NCBI RefSeq assembly: GCF_022758235.1
Contig: NZ_JALEBG010000001.1
Span: 248,001 to 312,000, forward strand
Reading direction: 5' to 3'
Length of the DNA: 64,000 bases
Source of the DNA: Pontibacter liquoris
Lineage (GTDB): Bacteria; Bacteroidota; Bacteroidia; Cytophagales; Hymenobacteraceae
Shown here: piece by piece, positions 6,386 through 19,322 of the stretch
Layout of the letters: every line of letters starts with the position of its first letter
How positions within the stretch are numbered: the first letter of the stretch is position 1
Program-made: the position numbers and the translations under genes
The notes under the pieces: generated by a model
Told to the model about the DNA's origin: nothing
Database searches by the model: none
Seen by the model: only the letters and a program-made list of their open reading frames with translations

Positions 6386-6526
6386 AGGGAGGTGGCGCCT
6401 TTGCCGGAAAGTGGCCCGGGTTAGCGCCGGTAAATTTTTAGATATCCGATATAAAATAATTTTTGATGCCGCGACAGCCGCACTGAACTAATTTGTATTA
6501 ATTCCGCTTTTATTAGCAACATTTAC

Positions 6527-7276
6527 TTGCTCATCAAAATCTGTACTGTTGTGAAAGATACTGTCCTTGCTGCCGAAGTTGTGCCTTACCAGGTATCGTT
6601 GAACATTAAAACCTGGGCCGAGGAAGACCGCCCGCGCGAAAAACTGCTGCTCAAAGGCAAGGCCGCCCTCAGCGATGCCGAACTGATCGCCATCCTCATT
6701 GGCTCGGGCACAGCCAAACTGACAGCAGTGGATGTGGCCAAGCTTATACTTAGCGCCGTGGGCAACGACCTGAACGAACTGGCCCGCCTCACAGTAAAAG
6801 ATCTGATGAAGCACAAAGGCATTGGTGAGGCAAAAGCCATTACCATTGTGAGCGCCCTGGACCTGGGCCGCCGCCGCAAAGAGACCGCTGCCGTTGCCAA
6901 AACCTGCATCACCTGCTCTACCGATATCTACAACTACATAAAGCCGCAATTGTTGGACCTGCCGCACGAAGAATTCTGGATCATTCTGCTGAACCGGGCC
7001 AACGTGGTGATGAAAAAGGAAAGCATCAGCTCGGGGGGCGTGGCCGGCACCGTAGCCGATCCGAAGATCATCTTCAAAAAAGCGCTGGAGCAGCTCGCCA
7101 GCTCGGTTATACTGGTGCACAACCATCCCAGCGGCAACCTCAAACCTAGCGCCGCCGACATCTCCCTCACCAAGAAAATGAAAGAAGCCGGTCAGTTCCT
7201 CGACCTGCCCATACTCGACCATATCATCTTTACCGATACCGACTACTACAGCTTCGCCGACGAAGGAATGCTGTGA
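6527..7276 (+). CDS. radC: RadC family JAB/MPN protein
   Basis: The N-terminal part has the UPF0758 signature (IKTWAEEDRPREKLLLKG...LSDAELIAILIGSGT) and a helix-hairpin-helix (KHKGIGEAKA). The JAMM-type metal motif is complete: HNHPSGN (first His about residue 198) with SAADISLT. Despite its name, a direct repair role for RadC is not established. No ATG is near the conserved start. TTG 6527 gives 249 residues; GTG 6551 or GTG 6581 would give shorter forms and may be the true start. The gene is followed by GTTAGAAA-type repeats that begin at its stop codon. Confidence 0.88.
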   Translation: MLIKICTVVKDTVLAAEVVPYQVSLNIKTWAEEDRPREKLLLKGKAALSDAELIAILIGSGTAKLTAVDVAKLILSAVGNDLNELARLTVKDLMKHKGIGEAKAITIVSALDLGRRRKETAAVAKTCITCSTDIYNYIKPQLLDLPHEEFWIILLNRANVVMKKESISSGGVAGTVADPKIIFKKALEQLASSVILVHNHPSGNLKPSAADISLTKKMKEAGQFLDLPILDHIIFTDTDYYSFADEGML

Positions 7277-7345
7277 GTTAGAAAGTCAGAGAGTTAAAAA
7301 GTTAGAAAGTTAAAGGGTATGAGTGAAGAGGTAGAAGGCTAAAGA
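7277..7345. repeat. GTTAGAAA-type short tandem intergenic repeat
   Basis: Degenerate tandem units of GTTAGAAA/GTTAAAAA directly after the radC stop. The same units follow oxyR (20882-20905) and DUF502 (28297-28335), and occur inverted at 28470-28525. Confidence 0.6.
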
Positions 7346-7376
7346 AGTATAAGCGGAGCAAACCATTCCCCAAACG

Positions 7377-7404
7377 TCCCCCTTTGAAGGGGGTAGGGGG
7401 ATGA
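7377..7404 (+). repeat. G-rich palindromic repeat, left copy
   Basis: CCCCCTTTGAAGGGGG followed by TAGGGGGATG. Same orientation as the copy at 19001-19028; inverted relative to 7821-7850 and 12973-13001. Confidence 0.8.
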
Positions 7405-7450
7405 TTTACACCAGCAGATATCCCAGAGATTAAAGTATAAAATAAGACCA

Positions 7451-7780
7451 ATGATGGCGCCAAACAGCGGCTATAACAAAAAGCTTCAGCCTTTTGCTAA
7501 AGCACTTCGCAGCACATCTACCAAAGCAGAGGTTAGGCTATGGTGCGAAGTGTTGCGCAACGGTAAACTGGGCTATCCGTTCCTGAGGCAGCGGCCCCTG
7601 CTCAACTACATTGCCGATTTTATGTGCAAAGAGCTAAAGCTCATCATCGAGGTGGATGGCTATACCCACAAGTTTAAGACAGTAGAAGATATGGAAAGAG
7701 ACAGCGTACTGGCGGGAAATGGCTTTACAACCCTACGGTTTACGGATGAGGAAGAGATGAAGGATTTGCCCAATGTGTAA
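7451..7780 (+). CDS. DUF559 (Vsr-like) endonuclease-fold protein, C-terminus cut by a stop
   Basis: 109 residues with the DUF559 pattern: an early helix TKAEVRLWCEVL (E27, W31), FLRQRPL, YIADFMC (D56), LIIEVDG (E67, D69), then H73 and TLRFTDEE. This family has a PD-(D/E)XK-type fold related to Vsr, but DNA cleavage is mostly unproven. The frame ends at TAA 7778-7780 right after ..LPNV. The same frame continues past the stop for 12 codons as RTIEVWITDRQA, which fits the usual family ending (..gVL+TIE.WI). The stop therefore probably removes the terminal helix. ATG at 7454 is an equal start. Confidence 0.7.
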   Translation: MMAPNSGYNKKLQPFAKALRSTSTKAEVRLWCEVLRNGKLGYPFLRQRPLLNYIADFMCKELKLIIEVDGYTHKFKTVEDMERDSVLAGNGFTTLRFTDEEEMKDLPNV

Positions 7781-7820
7781 CGCACTATTGAAGTATGGAT
7801 AACCGACCGACAGGCGTAAA

Positions 7821-7850
7821 TCAACCCCCTGCCCCCTTCAAAGGGGGACC
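7821..7850 (-). repeat. G-rich palindromic repeat, right (inverted) copy
   Basis: CCCCCTGCCCCCTTCAAAGG and following bases, the inverted counterpart of 7377-7404. Confidence 0.75.
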
Positions 7851-7880
7851 TTTAAATTGGCTTTTAAATACAACTCAACA

Positions 7881-8081
7881 TCAGTCTTCCGGCAGAATTT
7901 CCTTCACCCGGCCCACTTCGCCGGTTTCGAGGCGGACTTTGATGCCGTGCGGGTGGGTGGATGAATTAGTCAGAATGTCCTGCACGTAGCCTTCTGTGAG
8001 TGCGCCGGTACGCTGGTCTTCCTTCAGCACAATGTTAACATGCAGGCCGGGCTTGATGTCGGCGCGTTTTGTTCCGTTCAT
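7881..8081 (-). CDS. YwbE family protein (DUF2196)
   Basis: A 66-residue protein starting MNGTKRADIKPGLHVNIVLK, then EDQRTGALTEGYVQDILTNS, THPHGIKVRLETGEVGRVKEI. This is nearly the whole YwbE consensus, a small SH3-like beta-barrel family of unknown function. The start at 8081 is chosen because homologues begin at MNG; the upstream extension to 8120 is not family-like. Converges on the DUF559 element. Confidence 0.88.
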   Translation of the reverse strand: MNGTKRADIKPGLHVNIVLKEDQRTGALTEGYVQDILTNSSTHPHGIKVRLETGEVGRVKEILPED

Positions 8082-8156
8082 ACGGGAATGAGGGTTGATG
8101 AAAGCCGCAAGATACGACATTTACAGGGATGCGGCAGCACGCTGCTGCTGGTAAAG

Positions 8157-8657
8157 CTAGCGTTGCAGGGTAACAATGTTGAGATAGGGCTCGTCGGGGT
8201 CGAAGCTGAAGCGGGCAGGCGCGGTTACGTCCTGCTGTTTTACTTCTACCCGGGCAATATCGGGCAGGTACGCCAGCAGCAGTTCCGGCTTGCTGACCAG
8301 CTTATCATCAATAGCGATTTTCAGGTTTTGCTGCTGCGCCGGTACCTTAAAAGCGGCGTATACTTCCTGCAGCCGTGCCAGTTTGGTATCATTCTTCAAG
8401 GTCATCACCACTGCGCCAGCCTTCGCCTTATCGCCATACTTGGCTATTGCGACGGGGCCTTTCAACACGTCCATCCGCTGGATATGATCCGGGTGCAGAA
8501 CCAGGGCGTTCATCGCCCCTTCTTCGGAGCCGACGAGCAGGTAGGGCCGCGGCTGCGTTATACTTACCTGTTTGGTGATAGTGGCAGGCATGAGTTGCTG
8601 CGCCTGGGCCGCCAGGGCAAGTATAAAAAGCACTGCAATACATGCGAATTGTTTCAT
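8157..8657 (-). CDS. Exported protein with a TonB-plug-like segment
   Basis: 166 residues with signal peptide MKQFACIAVLFILALAAQAQ. The central stretch IQRMDVLKGPVAIAKYGDKA, then GAVVMTLK, is strikingly like the plug of SusC/TonB-dependent receptors (..EVLKGPaAaalYGsrAanGVilItTK), but the protein has no barrel. It may be a small domain reused as a periplasmic binder. The rest (AIDDKLVSKPELLLAYLPDI) repeats a receptor-plug flavour. No experimental function is known to me. Confidence 0.6.
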   Translation of the reverse strand: MKQFACIAVLFILALAAQAQQLMPATITKQVSITQPRPYLLVGSEEGAMNALVLHPDHIQRMDVLKGPVAIAKYGDKAKAGAVVMTLKNDTKLARLQEVYAAFKVPAQQQNLKIAIDDKLVSKPELLLAYLPDIARVEVKQQDVTAPARFSFDPDEPYLNIVTLQR

Positions 8658-12059: not shown

Positions 12060-12683
12060 ATGTCACGACCGCTGAGACTGATCATATTTGCCGGCATTGT
12101 ACTGGTGCTTTTCTATTTTGTAAAAGATACCCTTTTCAACGACGACAACTACATCAAACCGCTGCTGCAGGAGCGCCAGAACAAGGAACTCTCGTTCCGG
12201 AGCCGTGAGAACTCGCCGTTTACCGAAGATGGCCGCCGGGCATTCAAGGGCCTGACCTATTATGAGCCCAACCTGGCTTACCGCGTGAAAGCGCAGCTGC
12301 AGGCCATTCCGAAGCAGGACACAGTGCAGATGAAGATGAATAACGGCACGTCGGAACCCTACCTGCGCTATGCCACAGCCACCTTCGAGCTGGAAGGACA
12401 GCCCCAGCGCCTTACCTTGTTCAAGCGCCTGAGCGGTGAGAAGCAGGAGGAGCTGTTTGTGCCCTTCACTGACAAGACCAACGGCTTTGAAACGTATGGT
12501 GGCGGCCGTTTCCTGGATGTGGCTTATAGAGAGGATGCCAAAACCATTCAGCTGGATTTTAACCGTGCCTACAGCCCTTACTGCAACTATAATCCCGATT
12601 ACGTGTGCCCCGTGCCCCCGCAGGATAACCGCCTGGCAGTAGCTGTTCCGGCCGGGGAGAAAACCTACGAAGGAGCGCATTAA
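12060..12683 (+). CDS. DUF1684 domain protein, membrane-anchored
   Basis: 207 residues with an N-terminal hydrophobic anchor (about 5-22) and then the DUF1684 core: FRSRENSPFT, KGLTYYEPN, VPFTDKTNGFETYGGGRFLD, LDFNRAYSPYCNYNPDYVCPVPPQDN, GEKTY. The TNG.TYGxGR..D and paired-cysteine NPxxxCPxPP signatures match the family and also the second copy at 60102-61034. Function unknown; extracytoplasmic by topology. Island A starts right after the stop. Confidence 0.82.
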   Translation: MSRPLRLIIFAGIVLVLFYFVKDTLFNDDNYIKPLLQERQNKELSFRSRENSPFTEDGRRAFKGLTYYEPNLAYRVKAQLQAIPKQDTVQMKMNNGTSEPYLRYATATFELEGQPQRLTLFKRLSGEKQEELFVPFTDKTNGFETYGGGRFLDVAYREDAKTIQLDFNRAYSPYCNYNPDYVCPVPPQDNRLAVAVPAGEKTYEGAH

Positions 12684-12892
12684 GGCTTTAACCTAACTCC
12701 AGCCCTTTCCTGGGAGCAGGGGAGGGCAGGTGTGGCTTATGGTTTTCTGAAGTATAAGCGGAGTGGTACTGAGTCTAACCCCCCTACTCTCTCCTTGTTT
12801 TTTGAAGAGGGCCCCTACCCCCAGGAGGGGAGCCTGTAATTACTGCTTGAGAAGTATAAGTGGTGTAGGTTTGGCTTCTTTAGTTTTCTCAC

Positions 12893-12915
12893 AAGATCCT
12901 TTCAGGATGACAAAA
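12893..12915 (+). repeat. AGATCCTTTCAGGATGAC repeat, copy 1
   Basis: Contains ATCCTTTCAGGAT, an interrupted palindrome (ATCCT/AGGAT). Followed by an A/G-rich stretch, as in the other copies. Confidence 0.8.
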
Positions 12916-12972
12916 AGGGAAAGTGTGCTGTTTTGCTAGAGACAAGTATAAGCGGTATAGGTTAGGTGATAA

Positions 12973-13001
12973 CATCCCCCTACCCCCTTCAAAGGGGGAC
13001 T
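12973..13001 (-). repeat. G-rich palindromic repeat in island A
   Basis: Same unit as the one flanking the DUF559 ORF, in the orientation of 7821-7850. Confidence 0.8.
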
Positions 13002-13061
13002 TTCTGCCGATGGAAGAGCAGCAGCAAGCTTGCGTAGGAAAGGCTTAACCTCCCTTCCACC

Positions 13062-13084
13062 AAGATCCTTTCAGGATGACAAAA
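13062..13084 (+). repeat. AGATCCTTTCAGGATGAC repeat, copy 2
   Basis: Preceded by CTCCCTTCCACC, which also precedes or faces the copies in islands B and C in related form. Confidence 0.8.
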
Positions 13085-13147
13085 GAGAAGGAGGCAAGGA
13101 GAGCAGGTTTATACTTGTACTTCAGCTATACTTTCATAGCAGCTGCC

Positions 13148-13177
13148 ATCGTGCGGACAGGTCGCGACCTGCCCTAC
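13148..13177. repeat. CAGGTCGCGACCTG palindrome in island A
   Basis: A perfect 14-bp palindrome at 13158-13171 within GTGCGGACAGGTCGCGACCT; second copy at 51873-51903. Confidence 0.8.
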
Positions 13178-13217
13178 AGGGGTATCCACAAGCAAAGGCA
13201 GCTGCTATCGAAATCTT

Positions 13218-13382
13218 CCCAGTCCTTGGGTTGAGCGCCTTGGTGTGTTGCGGTGCCCGTCAGGGCAGCCCGCAGCGTAGCGAGGAGCAGCTTCACGCCA
13301 CAGTGCGATGCCAAAGGACAAGCCCTCGCGGGCTTGGAGCGCACCAAAGTCAAAAATCAAATAAGGCAAGTATAAAACTGAG
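13218..13382 (+). repeat. Dispersed element of about 170 bp, copy A
   Basis: Begins CCCAGTCCTTGGGTTGAGCG, passes through a GCAGCCCGC...GGCAGC-like hairpin-rich centre and CGCGGGCTTGGAGCGC, and ends GGCAAGTATAAAACTGAG. Copies: 18790-18956 (inverted) and 51975-52151 (direct). Confidence 0.8.
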
Positions 13383-13748
13383 CAATACAAGCAGCTAGTA
13401 AGTATAGCCAAACTAGCTATAAAACGTAGGAATACACCTAGCTACCAAGTATAGCCTAAGTTATAGAGCAGCATCTACAGCCACTACCAAGTATAACCAA
13501 AAGTAAAACGAAGCATCAACCAGCGGCTACCGAATATACCAACTAGTATAAACTACCACAGCAACCCCAAGCTGCCAACTATAACCGAAAGCACACCTCA
13601 GCATAAAACGGCAATAGCCTGTTACTCCCCAGCAACCCTTCTTTCAGACATTTTTCCTGGCCTTGCGCCACTAAACAGAATTATGCTTAATTTTGAAGAA
13701 CAGGAGCTGCTTTAAAGGCGGTTATACTTTCATACAACAGAAAACAAC

Positions 13749-16160
13749 ATGCTGATTTCGTTCGACTGGCTGAAACAACTGATCCACATAGACAAACCTG
13801 CAGAGGAAATAGGCACTTTACTTACGGGCGCAGGCCTCGAAGTGGAGGGCATTCATACGTACGAGGCGGTGCAGGGCGGCCTGGAAGGCATTGTGCTGGG
13901 GCAGGTGCTCACCTGCGAGCGCCACCCGGATGCCGACCGCCTCAGCATCACCACCGTCGATATTGGCACGGGCACACCGAGCCAGATCGTGTGTGGCGCC
14001 CCCAACGTGGGCGCCGGGCAGCGCGTGGTGGTGGCTACTGTTAACAGCACGCTGTACCCCACGGGCGGCGAACCTTTTAAGATCAAGAAATCAAAAATAC
14101 GCGGCGCTGCTTCCGAAGGGATGATCTGCGCCGAGGACGAAATTGGCATCGGTACCTCGCATGCGGGCATCATGGTGCTGGACACCGACCTGCCCAACGG
14201 CACACCGGCCGCCGCCTTCTTCGGGCTGGACTCCGACAAAGTGTTCGAGATCGGTCTGACGCCGAACCGGGCCGATGCCGCCTCGCATTACGGCGTGGCC
14301 CGCGACCTACAGGCCCTGACCGGTGCCAAAGCAGAACTGCCTTCTGTGGAAGCCTTCGGGGTAAGCAATACCTCCCGAAGTATAACCGTGGAAGTGGAAA
14401 ATACCGCTGCCTGCCCGCGCTATGCCGGGGTAACAGTTTCAGGTATAAAAGTAGGCCCTTCGCCCGAGTGGATGCAGCGGCGCCTGCGCGCCATCGGCCT
14501 CTCGCCCATTAACAACGTGGTGGACGTAACCAACTATGTGCTGCACGAACTGGGCCAGCCGCTGCATGCCTTTGACGCTGACAAGATAAAAGGCGGGAAG
14601 ATTGTGGTGAAAACCGTGGCCGAGGGCACCGTGTTTAAAACGCTGGATGGCGTGGAGCGCAAGCTGCAGGCTACCGACCTGATGATCTGCAATGCCGAAG
14701 AGCCCATGGCGATTGGCGGCGTATTTGGCGGGATAGAATCGGGGGTATCGGCCGAAACAACAAGTATCTTTATCGAAAGCGCATATTTCTCGCCGGACTG
14801 GGTGCGCCGCACGGGCATGGCCCACGGCCTGAAAACAGATGCCTCTTTCCGTTTTGAGCGGGGCACCGATCCGGACATGGTCATCACGGCGCTGAAGCGC
14901 GCGGCCCTGCTAGTGCAGGAGGTAGCCGGCGGCGAGGTCTCATCCCAAATCGTGGATGTGTACCCCAACCCGATCGGCAGCCGCGAGATTGTGGTAAGTA
15001 TAGCCCGTATTCACAGCCTGATCGGGCAGCACATCGGCACAGAGCGCATCAAAACGATTCTCACAGACCTGGGCATCACGATCACCGGCGAAACTGAAAC
15101 GCACCTGACCTTGTCGGTGCCACCGTTTAAGGTGGACGTGACCCGCGAGGCCGATGTGGTGGAAGAAGTGCTGCGTATCTATGGCTTTAACAACATCACG
15201 GTAAGCGAGCACATGTCGTCCACGTTTCTGGCCAACTTTCCGCGGCCAAACCCGGAAGATATCACTGACGCTATCATGAGCTATATTGCCGATAACGGCT
15301 TCCACGAGATCATTACCAACTCCATTACCAACTCTAATTACTATACACAGGACGGGGAAGAAGCGGGGTTGGTGGAAGTGGTGAACTATAACTCCGAAGA
15401 CCTGGACGTGTTGCGCAAGAGCATGGTGTTTTCGGGGCTGGAGGTGCTGCGCCGCAACATCAACCGCCGCCAGCGCGACCTGAAGCTTTTTGAATTGGGC
15501 AAAGTATACAGCAAGCTGGAAGGCGAATACAAGGAAAGTCGCCGGCTGGCCCTATACCTGGCCGGCAACGTGTCGGCCGAAAGCTGGAAGCAGCCAAGTA
15601 TAAAAACTGCTTTCCACGACCTGGCAGGCGTGGTGCAGAACGTGCTGCGCAAGCTGAACGCCGGCGATTTTGAGATGCAGCCACTGGCGCCTAACCGCTA
15701 CCTGCAGCAGGGTATTGCGTATACCAAAAACGGCACGGTGCTGGCTGAGCTTGGTCCGCTGGATGCCCTTGTAGCGCGGCAGATGGAAGTGAAAGAGCAG
15801 GTATGGTACGCCGAACTGAACTGGGATTACCTGCTTAAAAAGTATAAAGACAAGCTGACGGCCGAAGAGCTGCCTAAATATCCGGAAGTGCGCCGCGATC
15901 TGTCGCTGGTGCTGGATAAAAATGTTACCTTCGACCAAGTCCGCCAGATCGCGTTGCGCACCGAGCGCAAGCTGCTGCAGGATGTGAATGTGTTTGACGT
16001 GTACGAGGGCGACAAAATAGAAGCCGGTAAAAAGGCCTATGCCATCAGCTTTACGTTGCTGGACCGCCAGCAAACCCTGACCGATAAGGTGATCGAGAGT
16101 ACGATGAACCGCCTGATGCAACAATTTGAGAAACAACTGGGAGCTTTTATCCGCAAATAG
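13749..16160 (+). CDS. pheT: Phenylalanyl-tRNA synthetase beta subunit
   Basis: 803 residues, normal length for bacterial PheT, which with PheS charges tRNA-Phe. Domains run in order: N-terminal MLISFDWLKQLI, an EMAP-like tRNA-binding domain about 40-155 (RHPDADRLSITTVD, IVCGAPNV), B3/B4 with NRADAASHYGVARDL and YAGVTVSG, B5 (DVTREADVVEEVLRIYGFNN), a catalytic-like B6/B7 region, and a C-terminal anticodon-binding FDX-ACB domain (KYPEVRRDLSLVLD). pheS is not adjacent. The codon pair AGT ATA is used repeatedly (14382, 14996, 15598). Confidence 0.97.
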   Translation: MLISFDWLKQLIHIDKPAEEIGTLLTGAGLEVEGIHTYEAVQGGLEGIVLGQVLTCERHPDADRLSITTVDIGTGTPSQIVCGAPNVGAGQRVVVATVNSTLYPTGGEPFKIKKSKIRGAASEGMICAEDEIGIGTSHAGIMVLDTDLPNGTPAAAFFGLDSDKVFEIGLTPNRADAASHYGVARDLQALTGAKAELPSVEAFGVSNTSRSITVEVENTAACPRYAGVTVSGIKVGPSPEWMQRRLRAIGLSPINNVVDVTNYVLHELGQPLHAFDADKIKGGKIVVKTVAEGTVFKTLDGVERKLQATDLMICNAEEPMAIGGVFGGIESGVSAETTSIFIESAYFSPDWVRRTGMAHGLKTDASFRFERGTDPDMVITALKRAALLVQEVAGGEVSSQIVDVYPNPIGSREIVVSIARIHSLIGQHIGTERIKTILTDLGITITGETETHLTLSVPPFKVDVTREADVVEEVLRIYGFNNITVSEHMSSTFLANFPRPNPEDITDAIMSYIADNGFHEIITNSITNSNYYTQDGEEAGLVEVVNYNSEDLDVLRKSMVFSGLEVLRRNINRRQRDLKLFELGKVYSKLEGEYKESRRLALYLAGNVSAESWKQPSIKTAFHDLAGVVQNVLRKLNAGDFEMQPLAPNRYLQQGIAYTKNGTVLAELGPLDALVARQMEVKEQVWYAELNWDYLLKKYKDKLTAEELPKYPEVRRDLSLVLDKNVTFDQVRQIALRTERKLLQDVNVFDVYEGDKIEAGKKAYAISFTLLDRQQTLTDKVIESTMNRLMQQFEKQLGAFIRK

Positions 16161-16943: not shown

Positions 16944-18539
16944 ATGTCCATTCTTTATATTTTATTAACCGCTCTTGTTGCGCTCACTGCGGGCGTCTTC
17001 ATTGGGCGTATGCTGCTGCAGAAAGTGTACAAGCAGCAGGAAGAAGTCGCCCGCCAGACCGCTAAAACCATCATTCGCGAAGCCGAACTGAATGGCGAGA
17101 GCATCAAGAAAGACCGCATCCTGGAAGCCAAGGAGAAATACCTGAAGCTTAAGTCGGAGTTCGAGGAGGAGATGAATAAGAAAAAGAACATCATCATCCA
17201 GAACGAAAACAAGGTAAAGCAGCGCGAGCAACTGGTAAACAAGCAAATGGAGCAAACCAAGCGCCTCGAAACGGAGCTTGCCAAGGAAAAAGAACAGCTT
17301 GCCGCCCAGCTCGACAAAGAAAAGGAGCACTTGCACGCCCAGATGGAGCAGTTGAAAAAGCGCCGGGAAGAAGTAGAGCAGCAGCACCAGGAAATTGTGG
17401 ACCAGCTGGAAAAAATTGCCGGCCTGACCGCCTCCGAAGCGCGCGAGCAGCTGGTGGAAGCCCTCAAGAGCGAAGCCCAGACACAGGCCTCCTCGCACAT
17501 CAAAGACATTGTGGCCCAGGCCAAGCTCACTGCTACCAAGGAAGCCAAAAAGATCGTGATCGAGACCATCCAGCGCACGGCGGCAGAGCATGCCATCGAA
17601 AACTGCGTGTCGGTATTCAACATCGAAAGCGACGACATCAAAGGCAAGATCATCGGTCGTGAAGGCCGTAACATTCGTGCCCTTGAAGCGGCTACTGGCG
17701 TGGAGATCATCGTGGACGATACGCCGGAAGCCATCATCATTTCTGGTTTTGACCCGGTTCGCCGCGAGATTGCCCGTTTATCCTTGCACCGCCTGGTAGC
17801 CGACGGTCGTATTCACCCGGCCCGCATCGAGGAAGTGGTCGCCAAAACACGCAAGAACATCGAGGAAGAGATCGTGGAGATCGGCGAGCGCACCGCCATC
17901 GATCTGGGTATTCATGGCTTGCATCCGGAACTGATCAAGATGGTGGGCCGCATGCGTTTCCGCTCGTCTTACGGGCAGAACCTGCTGCAGCACTCGCGCG
18001 AAGTAGCCAACCTTTGTGCCACCATGGCCGCCGAGCTGGGCCTGAACGTGAAACACGCCAAACGCGCCGGTTTGCTGCATGACATTGGCAAGGTTACGCC
18101 GGATGAGCCGGAACTGCCGCACGCCATTATTGGTATGGAGCTGGCCAAGAAGTATAAGGAGCATCCGGATGTGGTAAACGCCATTGGTGCCCACCACGAC
18201 GAAGTGGAAATGACAGCAATGGTATCGCCACTGGTGCAGGCCTGTGACGCGATTTCCGGTTCCAGACCAGGTGCCCGCCGCGAGATCATGGAATCCTACA
18301 TCAAGCGTTTGAAGGAGCTGGAAGAAACAGCTATCTCGTTTGAAGGTGTTAACCAGTGCTACGCCATCCAGGCCGGCCGTGAGCTGCGCGTAATGGTGGA
18401 TGCCGATAACGTAACCGATGATAAAGCTGCTCAGATCTCCTTCGACATCTCGCAGAAGATCGAGAAAGAGATGCAGTACCCGGGCCAGATCAAGATCACG
18501 GTGATCCGGGAGATGCGCGCCATTAGCTACGCTAAGTAG
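16944..18539 (+). CDS. rny: Ribonuclease Y
   Basis: 531 residues, close to typical RNase Y (about 520). An N-terminal membrane helix (about 3-20), a long charged coiled coil (25-200), a KH domain (about 222-285: [20 protein letters not shown]), and an HD phosphohydrolase domain whose HD pair is H379-D380 in LLHDIGKV, followed by [10 protein letters not shown]. It initiates mRNA decay by endonucleolytic cleavage at the membrane. Preceded by a 116-base gap after zapA and closed by a strong terminator. Confidence 0.97.
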
Positions 18540-18561
18540 TATTTGAGTATAAATTAAGGTT

Positions 18562-18600
18562 AAACCGCCTGCTACAGCTTTTGTAGCAGGCGGTTTTGTT
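18562..18600 (+). terminator. Strong terminator of the pheT-zapA-rny region
   Basis: A 15-bp perfect stem (18562-18576 with 18582-18596), loop GCTTT, followed by a T-rich tail. Confidence 0.9.
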
Positions 18601-18789
18601 TTGTTATGATCGGGTTATACTTGGTAAGGGACATGTGTAGGTAGCAATTGTACTTCTTCAATTAAAGTCGTTCCGGCTATACTTGATAGCTGGCTGTATT
18701 CCTCAGGTTTATACTTTGGCTATACTTGGTAGCTTGTGTTTGATGTGGCAGTTTATACTTCCTGCTATACTTGCTAACCAGCTGTTTTG

Positions 18790-18956
18790 CTCAGTCTTAT
18801 ACTTGCCTTGTTTCATTTCTGGCTTTGAAGCGCTCCAAGCCCGCGGGGGCTCGTCCTTGCGTTTCGCGCTGCTTTCATTTCCTGCCTTCGTACCTCAGGC
18901 TGCCTCACTATCGTTCGTCACCGGAAATTCTCGAGGCGCTTAACCCAAGGACTGGG
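18790..18956 (-). repeat. Dispersed element of about 170 bp, copy B (inverted)
   Basis: Starts CTCAGTCTTATACTTGCCTT and ends CCCAAGGACTGGG. The ends and the GCGCTCCAAGCCCGCGGG core match copies A and C; the middle is more divergent. Confidence 0.75.
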
Positions 18957-19000
18957 ATCATTTTCGATAGCTCAGCTTTATACTATGCAACTTGAACCAA

Positions 19001-19028
19001 GTCCCCCTTTGAAGGGGGTAGGGGGATG
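19001..19028 (+). repeat. G-rich palindromic repeat in island B
   Basis: Same unit and orientation as 7377-7404. Confidence 0.8.
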
Positions 19029-19093
19029 TTCTTCATTCACCAAGCTACTTATACTTCAGCGCAAGTATAAACTTCCTCGTCATGCCTTTTTGC

Positions 19094-19117
19094 TTTTGTC
19101 ATCCTGAAAAGGATCTT
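19094..19117 (-). repeat. AGATCCTTTCAGGATGAC repeat, inverted copy
   Basis: GTCATCCTGAAAAGGATCTT followed by GGTGGAAAGG, the reverse complement of the island A units with one base difference. Confidence 0.8.
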
Positions 19118-19176
19118 GGTGGAAAGGAAACGAAGCCAAAACAACAGAGCTTATCCCTTAGCTAAAGTAGTGGCCG

Positions 19177-19220
19177 GCTCCCCTCCTTAGATAAGGAGGG
19201 ACAAGGGGTGGTTGGACCCG
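19177..19220. repeat. C-rich hairpin block, island B
   Basis: CTCCTTAGATAAGGAG is a palindromic stem. The flanks match the block at 51670-51714 in reverse orientation. Confidence 0.65.
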
Positions 19221-19322
19221 GTCCTGAACACCGACAGATCTATAAGGCAGGCGGCCAAGTACGTGCAGACGCCTTTTTAGACTTGTTCTACCGGGCAGCA
19301 AGCCAAAGTAGCTGCTACGCTG

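Follow-up and report, generated by a model that had tools for sequence, protein, structure and literature searches.

A DUF559 nuclease gene between inverted copies of a dispersed palindrome: a candidate REP/REPIN-like mobile unit in Pontibacter liquoris and related Bacteroidota

REP-type palindromes are widespread, and candidate enzymes have been put forward chiefly for the RAYT-linked ones. RAYTs presumably act on REPINs, and REP/REPIN-RAYT systems combine an enzyme gene lying within inverted palindromes, class-specific pairing of gene and palindrome, gene-less inverted doublets, dispersed solo copies and few gene copies per genome. The DUF559 units described here share all of these features, whereas they differ in the enzyme (an HUH Y1 transposase in RAYTs, an EDxHD/PD-(D/E)XK-like DUF559 protein here), in the tag (a conserved GTAG or CGTC there, a second G-run here) and in being found additionally in frame inside essential genes; moreover, RAYT-type genes with other palindromes coexist in the same genomes. 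MITEs and Rickettsia palindromic elements (RPEs) are likewise short inverted-repeat elements, and some RPEs are translated in frame inside host proteins; a conserved nuclease ORF can, however, form part of the DUF559 unit, whose hairpin and tag recur in the doublets. Vsr/YcjD-type DUF559 proteins belong to the same Pfam family, and the E. coli locus examined (L415; the DUF559 member of this species is presumably YcjD) has no flanking inverted repeat. YcjD is named as a PD-(D/E)XK protein in PMC1189080, I-Bth0305I exemplifies the EDxHD family according to PMC3943268, and PMC3733652 describes CGTC-tagged REPs as apparently without a dedicated transposase. The homing endonuclease I-Bth0305I is a profile and fold relative of DUF559 and is also encoded by a mobile nuclease gene, whereas DUF559 was seen without intron, intein or separate DNA-binding domain and is bracketed by dispersed palindromes. 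Among the matches listed in a search of openly licensed papers, none tied DUF559 to dispersed palindromes in its title or the start of its abstract.

The locus lies in a 64,000-nt stretch of Pontibacter liquoris DNA (the window; RefSeq assembly GCF_022758235.1, contig NZ_JALEBG010000001.1, positions 248,001 to 312,000), whose features are collected in the table. The original prediction, made from the letters of the window, was that a DUF559 ORF sits between oppositely facing palindromes that recur alone in islands. Both parts hold: Pfam assigns the ORF to PF04480 (E 7.8e-27), the two inverted arms of 41 nt are 90% complementary and separated by 400 nt, and solo cores lie in two non-coding, repeat-holding stretches. 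Arms of the same kind (class A) also flank class A relatives. Allowing up to three mismatches, the core CCCCCTTTGAAGGGGG is matched 9 times in the window, counting both strands, compared with a maximum of 4 in dinucleotide shuffles (0/100 reached 9). The 4.9-Mb genome contains 54 exact copies, 27 forward and 27 reverse, with none for the reversed pattern. The in-frame TAA at 7778-7780 falls within the family alignment, meaning that the window protein has lost part of its C-terminus; the shortened enzyme may be impaired at this locus. Open class A copies are present in relatives and at C1:1405433 of the window genome. Rfam gave no match across 6400-8200, so that a known RNA was discarded as an explanation of the locus, as was a phage origin, with just 3 weak phage records matched. 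The islands themselves (12650-13750 and 18500-19320) are mosaics of several repeat families, including GGACAGGTCGCGACCTG, AAGATCCTTTCAGGATGACAA and the class A palindrome, and of the 30 genome copies of this palindrome that were read, many have flanks similar to those in the islands.

Table. Features of the window at and around the DUF559 unit.
Feature	Coordinates	Strand	Remarks
Left inverted arm, class A palindrome	7372..7412	+	C-run/loop/G-run plus second G-run tag GGGGGATG; core 7378-7393
DUF559 (PF04480) EDxHD/PD-(D/E)XK-type nuclease ORF, 109 aa	7451..7780	+	C-terminus shortened by early TAA
Right inverted arm, class A palindrome	7813..7853	-	Inverted repeat; core 7832-7847
Class A palindrome core, solo	12983..12998	-	Non-coding repeat island
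Class A palindrome core, solo	19003..19018	+	Non-coding repeat island
radC, left neighbour of the DUF559 unit	6527..7276	+	Syntenic in relatives, most without the DUF559 unit; presumed identity (name from the original prediction)
ywbE-like small ORF, right neighbour	7884..8081	-	Served the empty-site test; presumed identity (name from the original prediction)
8-nt array of GTTAGAAA type	7277..7330	+	Apparent remnant of the 23S_rRNA_IVP (four-helix-bundle) unit occupying the gap in relatives

The DUF559 protein has a conserved, nuclease-like core. Residues E16, D45, E56, D58, H62 and D69 (class A reference numbering) are kept in 91-93 of 93 rows, and the fold alignment comprised 51 fetched loci plus the window, excluding L373, L374 and L409 (internal stops) and shorter or partial loci. 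For an intact relative of class A, an AlphaFold2 model (pLDDT 88.6, pTM 0.82) matched a Neisseria structure (3hrl, Foldseek E 3.6e-7) and the homing endonuclease I-Bth0305I (3r3p, 8.3e-4), both also found by sequence profile (1.4e-24 and 1.7e-5), while Vsr itself was a poor match (1vsr, E 0.5). Nothing of an HUH/Y1 tyrosine transposase was found: Pfam gave DUF559 only, and the fold is EDxHD/Vsr-like. Similarly, the window protein matched no known transposase family (one relative gave a weak, below-cut-off IS1380 match) and no PADLOC defence family (two relatives at E 0.005-0.009 only), and NCBIfam PRK09767 was matched below its cut-off. Free-standing copies are mostly open frames of about 110-190 aa. 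Purifying selection is indicated by the dN/dS ratio, which is 0.11 for the window copy compared with that of G103; dS could be estimated for 8 of 78 class A pairs, and these gave ratios of 0.04-0.14. Within a single genome the highest paralogue identity was 75% among the 74 pairs compared, a subset of all paralogues, and there is therefore no sign of recent gene multiplication in these pairs.

DUF559 is present in 134/150 family genomes and 170/296 phylum genomes sampled, and its bracketing was scored as the best inverted repeat between left and right flanks (250-350 nt, seeds of 8-10 nt; RAYTs were given their best score over nine flank settings), with thresholds that differ between tests. 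Among the 30 top-scoring DUF559 matches of the family search, 27 scored at least 18, against a maximum of 14 for shuffled flanks; the same proportion was obtained in a second set of 30, read from 53 matches in 9 genomes and sharing 4 loci with the first. A further test was a hold-out of 20 DUF559 loci in 20 congeners, whose flanks had been unread before: 19 scored at least 16 and 18 at least 18, whereas a score of at least 16 was reached by 3/139 neighbouring ORFs (90-250 aa long, from those stretches of up to 20 kb) and 8/550 random placements (Fisher p 1.7e-20). The REP/RAYT-like layout that had been proposed for the window is thus real and general. The three control positives come from one stretch and are a GIY-YIG nuclease, an adjoining unnamed ORF sharing its repeat, and a gene of Y1_Tnp/RAYT type (PF01797, E 2.5e-7; its match to NCBIfam REP_Tyr_transpos was below cut-off). 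Since a RAYT gene is among them, the blind flank test also recovers the known REP/RAYT layout. Chance as the cause of the bracket was rejected by shuffles, neighbouring ORFs, and random and shifted placements. Bracketing is not universal, though: among 80 named loci picked up through their similarity to class A, 40 scored at least 18 and 40 less, compared with 0/151 shifted controls. Nine loci from other phyla (out of 33 plasmid-collection records) included scores of at least 18 in Pseudanabaena (40), Sphingomonas (23) and Deinococcus (20.5), and 17 in Picosynechococcus; the other five, E. coli (L415) included, scored 0-9. As a separate observation, the GIY-YIG ORF (L242:7709-8096; PF01541, E 2.4e-14) lies within 80-nt inverted copies of TGTCATTTCGACGAAAGGAGAAATC... 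with a score of 66, which makes GIY-YIG the third nuclease fold seen here with a repeat of its own.

The palindromes fall into classes, exemplified by GTCCCCCTTTGAAGGGGGTAGGGGGATGA (class A), TCCCCTTGAGGGGACTACAGGGGTGT (class B) and ATTCCCCTCCTCGGAGGGGTTAGGGGTGGGT (class B'), and several DUF559 classes can coexist in one genome. In a tree of 56 DUF559 domains the grouping follows the palindrome and not the genome. This pairing was quantified on a hand-made locus list from which repeats of the same place were removed and loci with an arm score of at least 15 kept (111/122). Between nearest protein neighbours in different genomes the palindrome similarity averaged 26.2 versus 12.0 when shuffled (0/2000 as high; 111 loci). 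When the shuffle was confined to paralogues of one genome, the observed value was 25.8 against a shuffled mean of 14.9 and maximum of 20.9 (0/2000; 27 multi-copy genomes, 72 loci). Among paralogues within one genome the mean similarity was 10.5. For the hold-out loci, the palindrome class was compared by eye with the class of the nearest protein. DUF559 genes that lack the window palindrome had been put forward as grounds against the association; other clades turn out to carry palindromes of their own, and some have none that the flank test detects (six Rufibacter loci, and the five low-scoring loci from other phyla). The commonest design is a C-run, a loop, a G-run, a few bases and a second G-run, so that the C-run can pair with either G-run; in single-strand folds the choice between the two pairings varies. 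The tag position varies among T, C and G (GGGGGTAGGGGG, GGGGGCAGGGGG, GGGGGGAGGGGG), other classes are without it, and the DUF559-linked palindromes do not carry a GTAG or CGTC tetranucleotide tag.

Away from the genes, the class A pattern occurred in 44/50 genomes (0-47 copies) and the class B pattern in 36/50 (0-69 copies), with none for either reversed control. In G000, class A palindromes are mostly solo. Class B palindromes often form inverted doublets. Sixteen class B doublets were fetched, with start-to-start distances of 61 (4 doublets), 72-73 (2) and 84-87 bp (10), that is, inverted doublets of set spacing as in REPINs. The hairpin and tag are common to these gene-less doublets and the gene-bearing units; a shared TTTACACC extension was considered and found to be partial only, with TGTTTAC coming after the left tag in 8/16 doublets and GTTTAC after the tag in 1/4 class B gene units. 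Copy numbers were less specific. The number of A-palindromes was associated with presence of the A gene (p 0.024), and also of the B (p 0.035) and B' genes (p 0.0045), and that of B-palindromes with the B (p 0.0004) and B' genes (p 0.0023) and not the A gene (p 0.29), in a test that is confounded by the correlation of A and B counts (rho 0.65) and by gene fragments being scored as present. Fourteen genomes had at least 10 A-palindromes without an A-DUF559. The pattern can be read as lasting old palindromes plus shared ancestry, and gives weak support at best to a link between gene and copy number.

We consider it probable, on balance, that the locus, whose enzyme is shortened, represents a family of small mobile units in which a DUF559 nuclease gene lies between inverted copies of its clade's own palindrome, and in which the nuclease recognises, cuts and spreads the palindromes. 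The best reading is a REP/REPIN-like system in which an EDxHD/PD-(D/E)XK-type nuclease takes the place of the HUH transposase. DUF559 would recognise its own palindrome, most likely when this is extruded into a hairpin or cruciform, a target proposed because the C-run can pair with either G-run, and would nick or cut there. Repair of the break could then copy palindromes or the entire unit elsewhere. The enzyme would also act in trans on solo palindromes and doublets, much as is proposed for RAYTs on REPINs, presumably by hydrolytic cutting and not by HUH chemistry. The original prediction had ventured that the nuclease is responsible for spreading the repeats; the bracket and the class-specific palindrome speak for this, while the agency of the enzyme is what we infer, the class-specific copy-number correlation being weak and no boundary, target duplication or recent gene copy having been found.

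The main alternative is a MITE-like element that has the palindromes as its ends and that another enzyme, such as a RAYT, or the host replication/repair machinery moves in trans, with DUF559 as cargo of other benefit to the element or host. Like insertion sequences and MITEs, the DUF559 unit does have terminal inverted repeats. The co-divergence of gene and palindrome does not decide the matter, since a mere cargo gene would co-diverge with its ends too, and orphan palindromes persist without the gene of their class. In relatives, a bracketed gene that is not a nuclease exists at the very site of the window unit. radC is followed by ywbE in 29/30 fetched genomes, the window included (from 50 matching genomes, 30 were fetched; a class A protein was the only probe for the gap), and the DUF559 unit occupies 2/29 of these gaps, in the window and one other species. 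This dismisses a fixed host gene, and with it the conserved radC/ywbE synteny that would have spoken against mobility; the unit is missing here from 27 of the 28 relatives with both neighbours in reach. In five of the relatives read, the gap is instead occupied by a four-helix-bundle-type ORF of 112-134 aa (the one tested matched PF05635 23S_rRNA_IVP, E 4e-16), which may be cargo of the kind that DUF559 is supposed to be. In several of those printed (among L119, L134, L137, L128 and L142), the ORF is framed by inverted arrays of the 8-nt GTTAGAAA, which gives the site another type of bracketed unit with a single gene. RAYTs, on the other hand, do not appear to supply the mover. In 12 genomes, 15 of 30 RAYT-type loci read (of 37 listed places) had flanking inverted repeats scoring at least 16, and none of these 15 matched a panel of eight DUF559-class motifs that matches 52/70 DUF559 arms, so that a RAYT as mover of the DUF559 palindromes was rejected. 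Furthermore, no other gene common to the DUF559 units was seen, and the active-site residues are conserved across clades. We regard the cargo explanation as unlikely. The RAYT-type genes of Pontibacter (L419-L448) have several distinct palindromes, e.g. GGCGCGAGCTTGCAGCTCGTGCC, alongside the DUF559 classes.

DUF559 units were also found inside or at the ends of protein-coding genes, in a survey of 40 DUF559 matches chosen for long open frames (and hence no measure of in-frame frequency), of which 13 representatives were scanned for families. The host proteins include MetH, LeuS (two sites), RecQ, RecG, a RecB/AddA-like helicase, a methylmalonyl-CoA mutase and several R-M proteins; a further locus, L041, has the unit at the end of a PurQ-type (GATase_5) protein. 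The reading frames stay open through the units, and arms scoring at least 18 were present in 20/40 long-frame loci versus 0/160 control placements. For MetH, 13/16 genomes of one genus have a plain 28-aa linker and 3/16 the DUF559 unit, with one MetH match per genome and matched arms in 2/3 units. In the LeuS loop, DUF559 occurs in 5/30 loci read (of 77 matching genomes, all but one with a single match), with matched arms in 2/4 units tested and a fifth that appears degraded; the remainder have short loops, some of other repeats. Both insertions thus have empty alleles in congeners. By eye, neither a target-site duplication nor an exact boundary was evident in 16 doublets or in the MetH and LeuS alleles, with flanks too diverged for a firm reading. 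The loop, which lies in the LeuS editing domain (loci L202-L231), is an in-frame landing site for unrelated short repeats as well (AAAGTCGAAAGT arrays and a GTCATTGCGAACGAAG... repeat).

These alleles bear on a second alternative, in which DUF559 would cut solo palindromes spread by other means and gene conversion would copy the unit into them, in a homing-like manner. The homology to I-Bth0305I fits such a process, near-palindromic arms would permit pairing at any solo copy, and high-identity duplicate genes were absent among the pairs compared. However, the 13 plain MetH linkers are without such a palindrome, the LeuS loops lacking DUF559 have no recognisable one (some have other repeats), and the doublets resemble gene-less forms of the unit, all of which makes homing into pre-existing palindromes improbable. 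Returning to units spread by their own nuclease, we suggest more tentatively, and with slightly more doubt than belief, that they might form a separate class of bacterial mobile element, whose sole enzyme, an EDxHD/PD-(D/E)XK-type nuclease, would recognise the C-run/G-run hairpins at its own ends, disperse hairpins and gene-less doublets through the genome, and repeatedly insert itself in frame as a tolerated extra domain of essential enzymes. Such a class would be widespread in Bacteroidota and apparently also present in cyanobacteria, Deinococcus and Sphingomonas. If so, repeats of this type would gain a candidate agent in a second nuclease, unrelated to RAYTs and matched to its palindromes clade by clade, REP systems would be of convergent origin, and the odd extra domain in LeuS, MetH, RecQ and RecG of Bacteroidota would be explained. 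The DUF559 clades offer matched enzyme-palindrome pairs for direct biochemistry.

Several observations count against spreading by the DUF559 nuclease: near-identical paralogues and a target duplication or boundary were not found, the copy-number correlation is weak and unspecific, the Rufibacter gene is under selection without arms, half of the 80 named loci score below 18, arms are missing from several in-frame units, and the window copy is shortened. The idea that DUF559 is an ordinary, Vsr-like host repair or restriction nuclease, and that the palindromes near it act as transcription terminators or stem from random REP insertion, was already disfavoured and seems very improbable, since the arms are inverted and class-matched, occur even within open reading frames (20/40 versus 0/160 control placements) and are rare around controls (3/139 and 0/151), even though some DUF559 genes adjoin BREX-type genes or sit in R-M genes, the Rufibacter copies are fixed, and the Caulobacter DUF559 protein VsrA is held responsible, in PMC12907096, for an SOS response in cells without a methyltransferase.

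In Rufibacter (L338, L339, L340, L345, L346 and L348), class A DUF559 is fixed at one site and no arms were detected at the six loci (scores 0-9). A MoxR-type AAA ATPase lies on one side of it and a DUF58 protein on the other (their families were confirmed in one species, and the same neighbours seen by eye in all six). Among the five copies compared, dN is low; the closest pair has a dS of 0.29 and a dN of 0.046, and otherwise dS is high or saturated. It is possible that the Rufibacter gene has been domesticated under apparent purifying selection, in a manner comparable to domesticated RAYTs.
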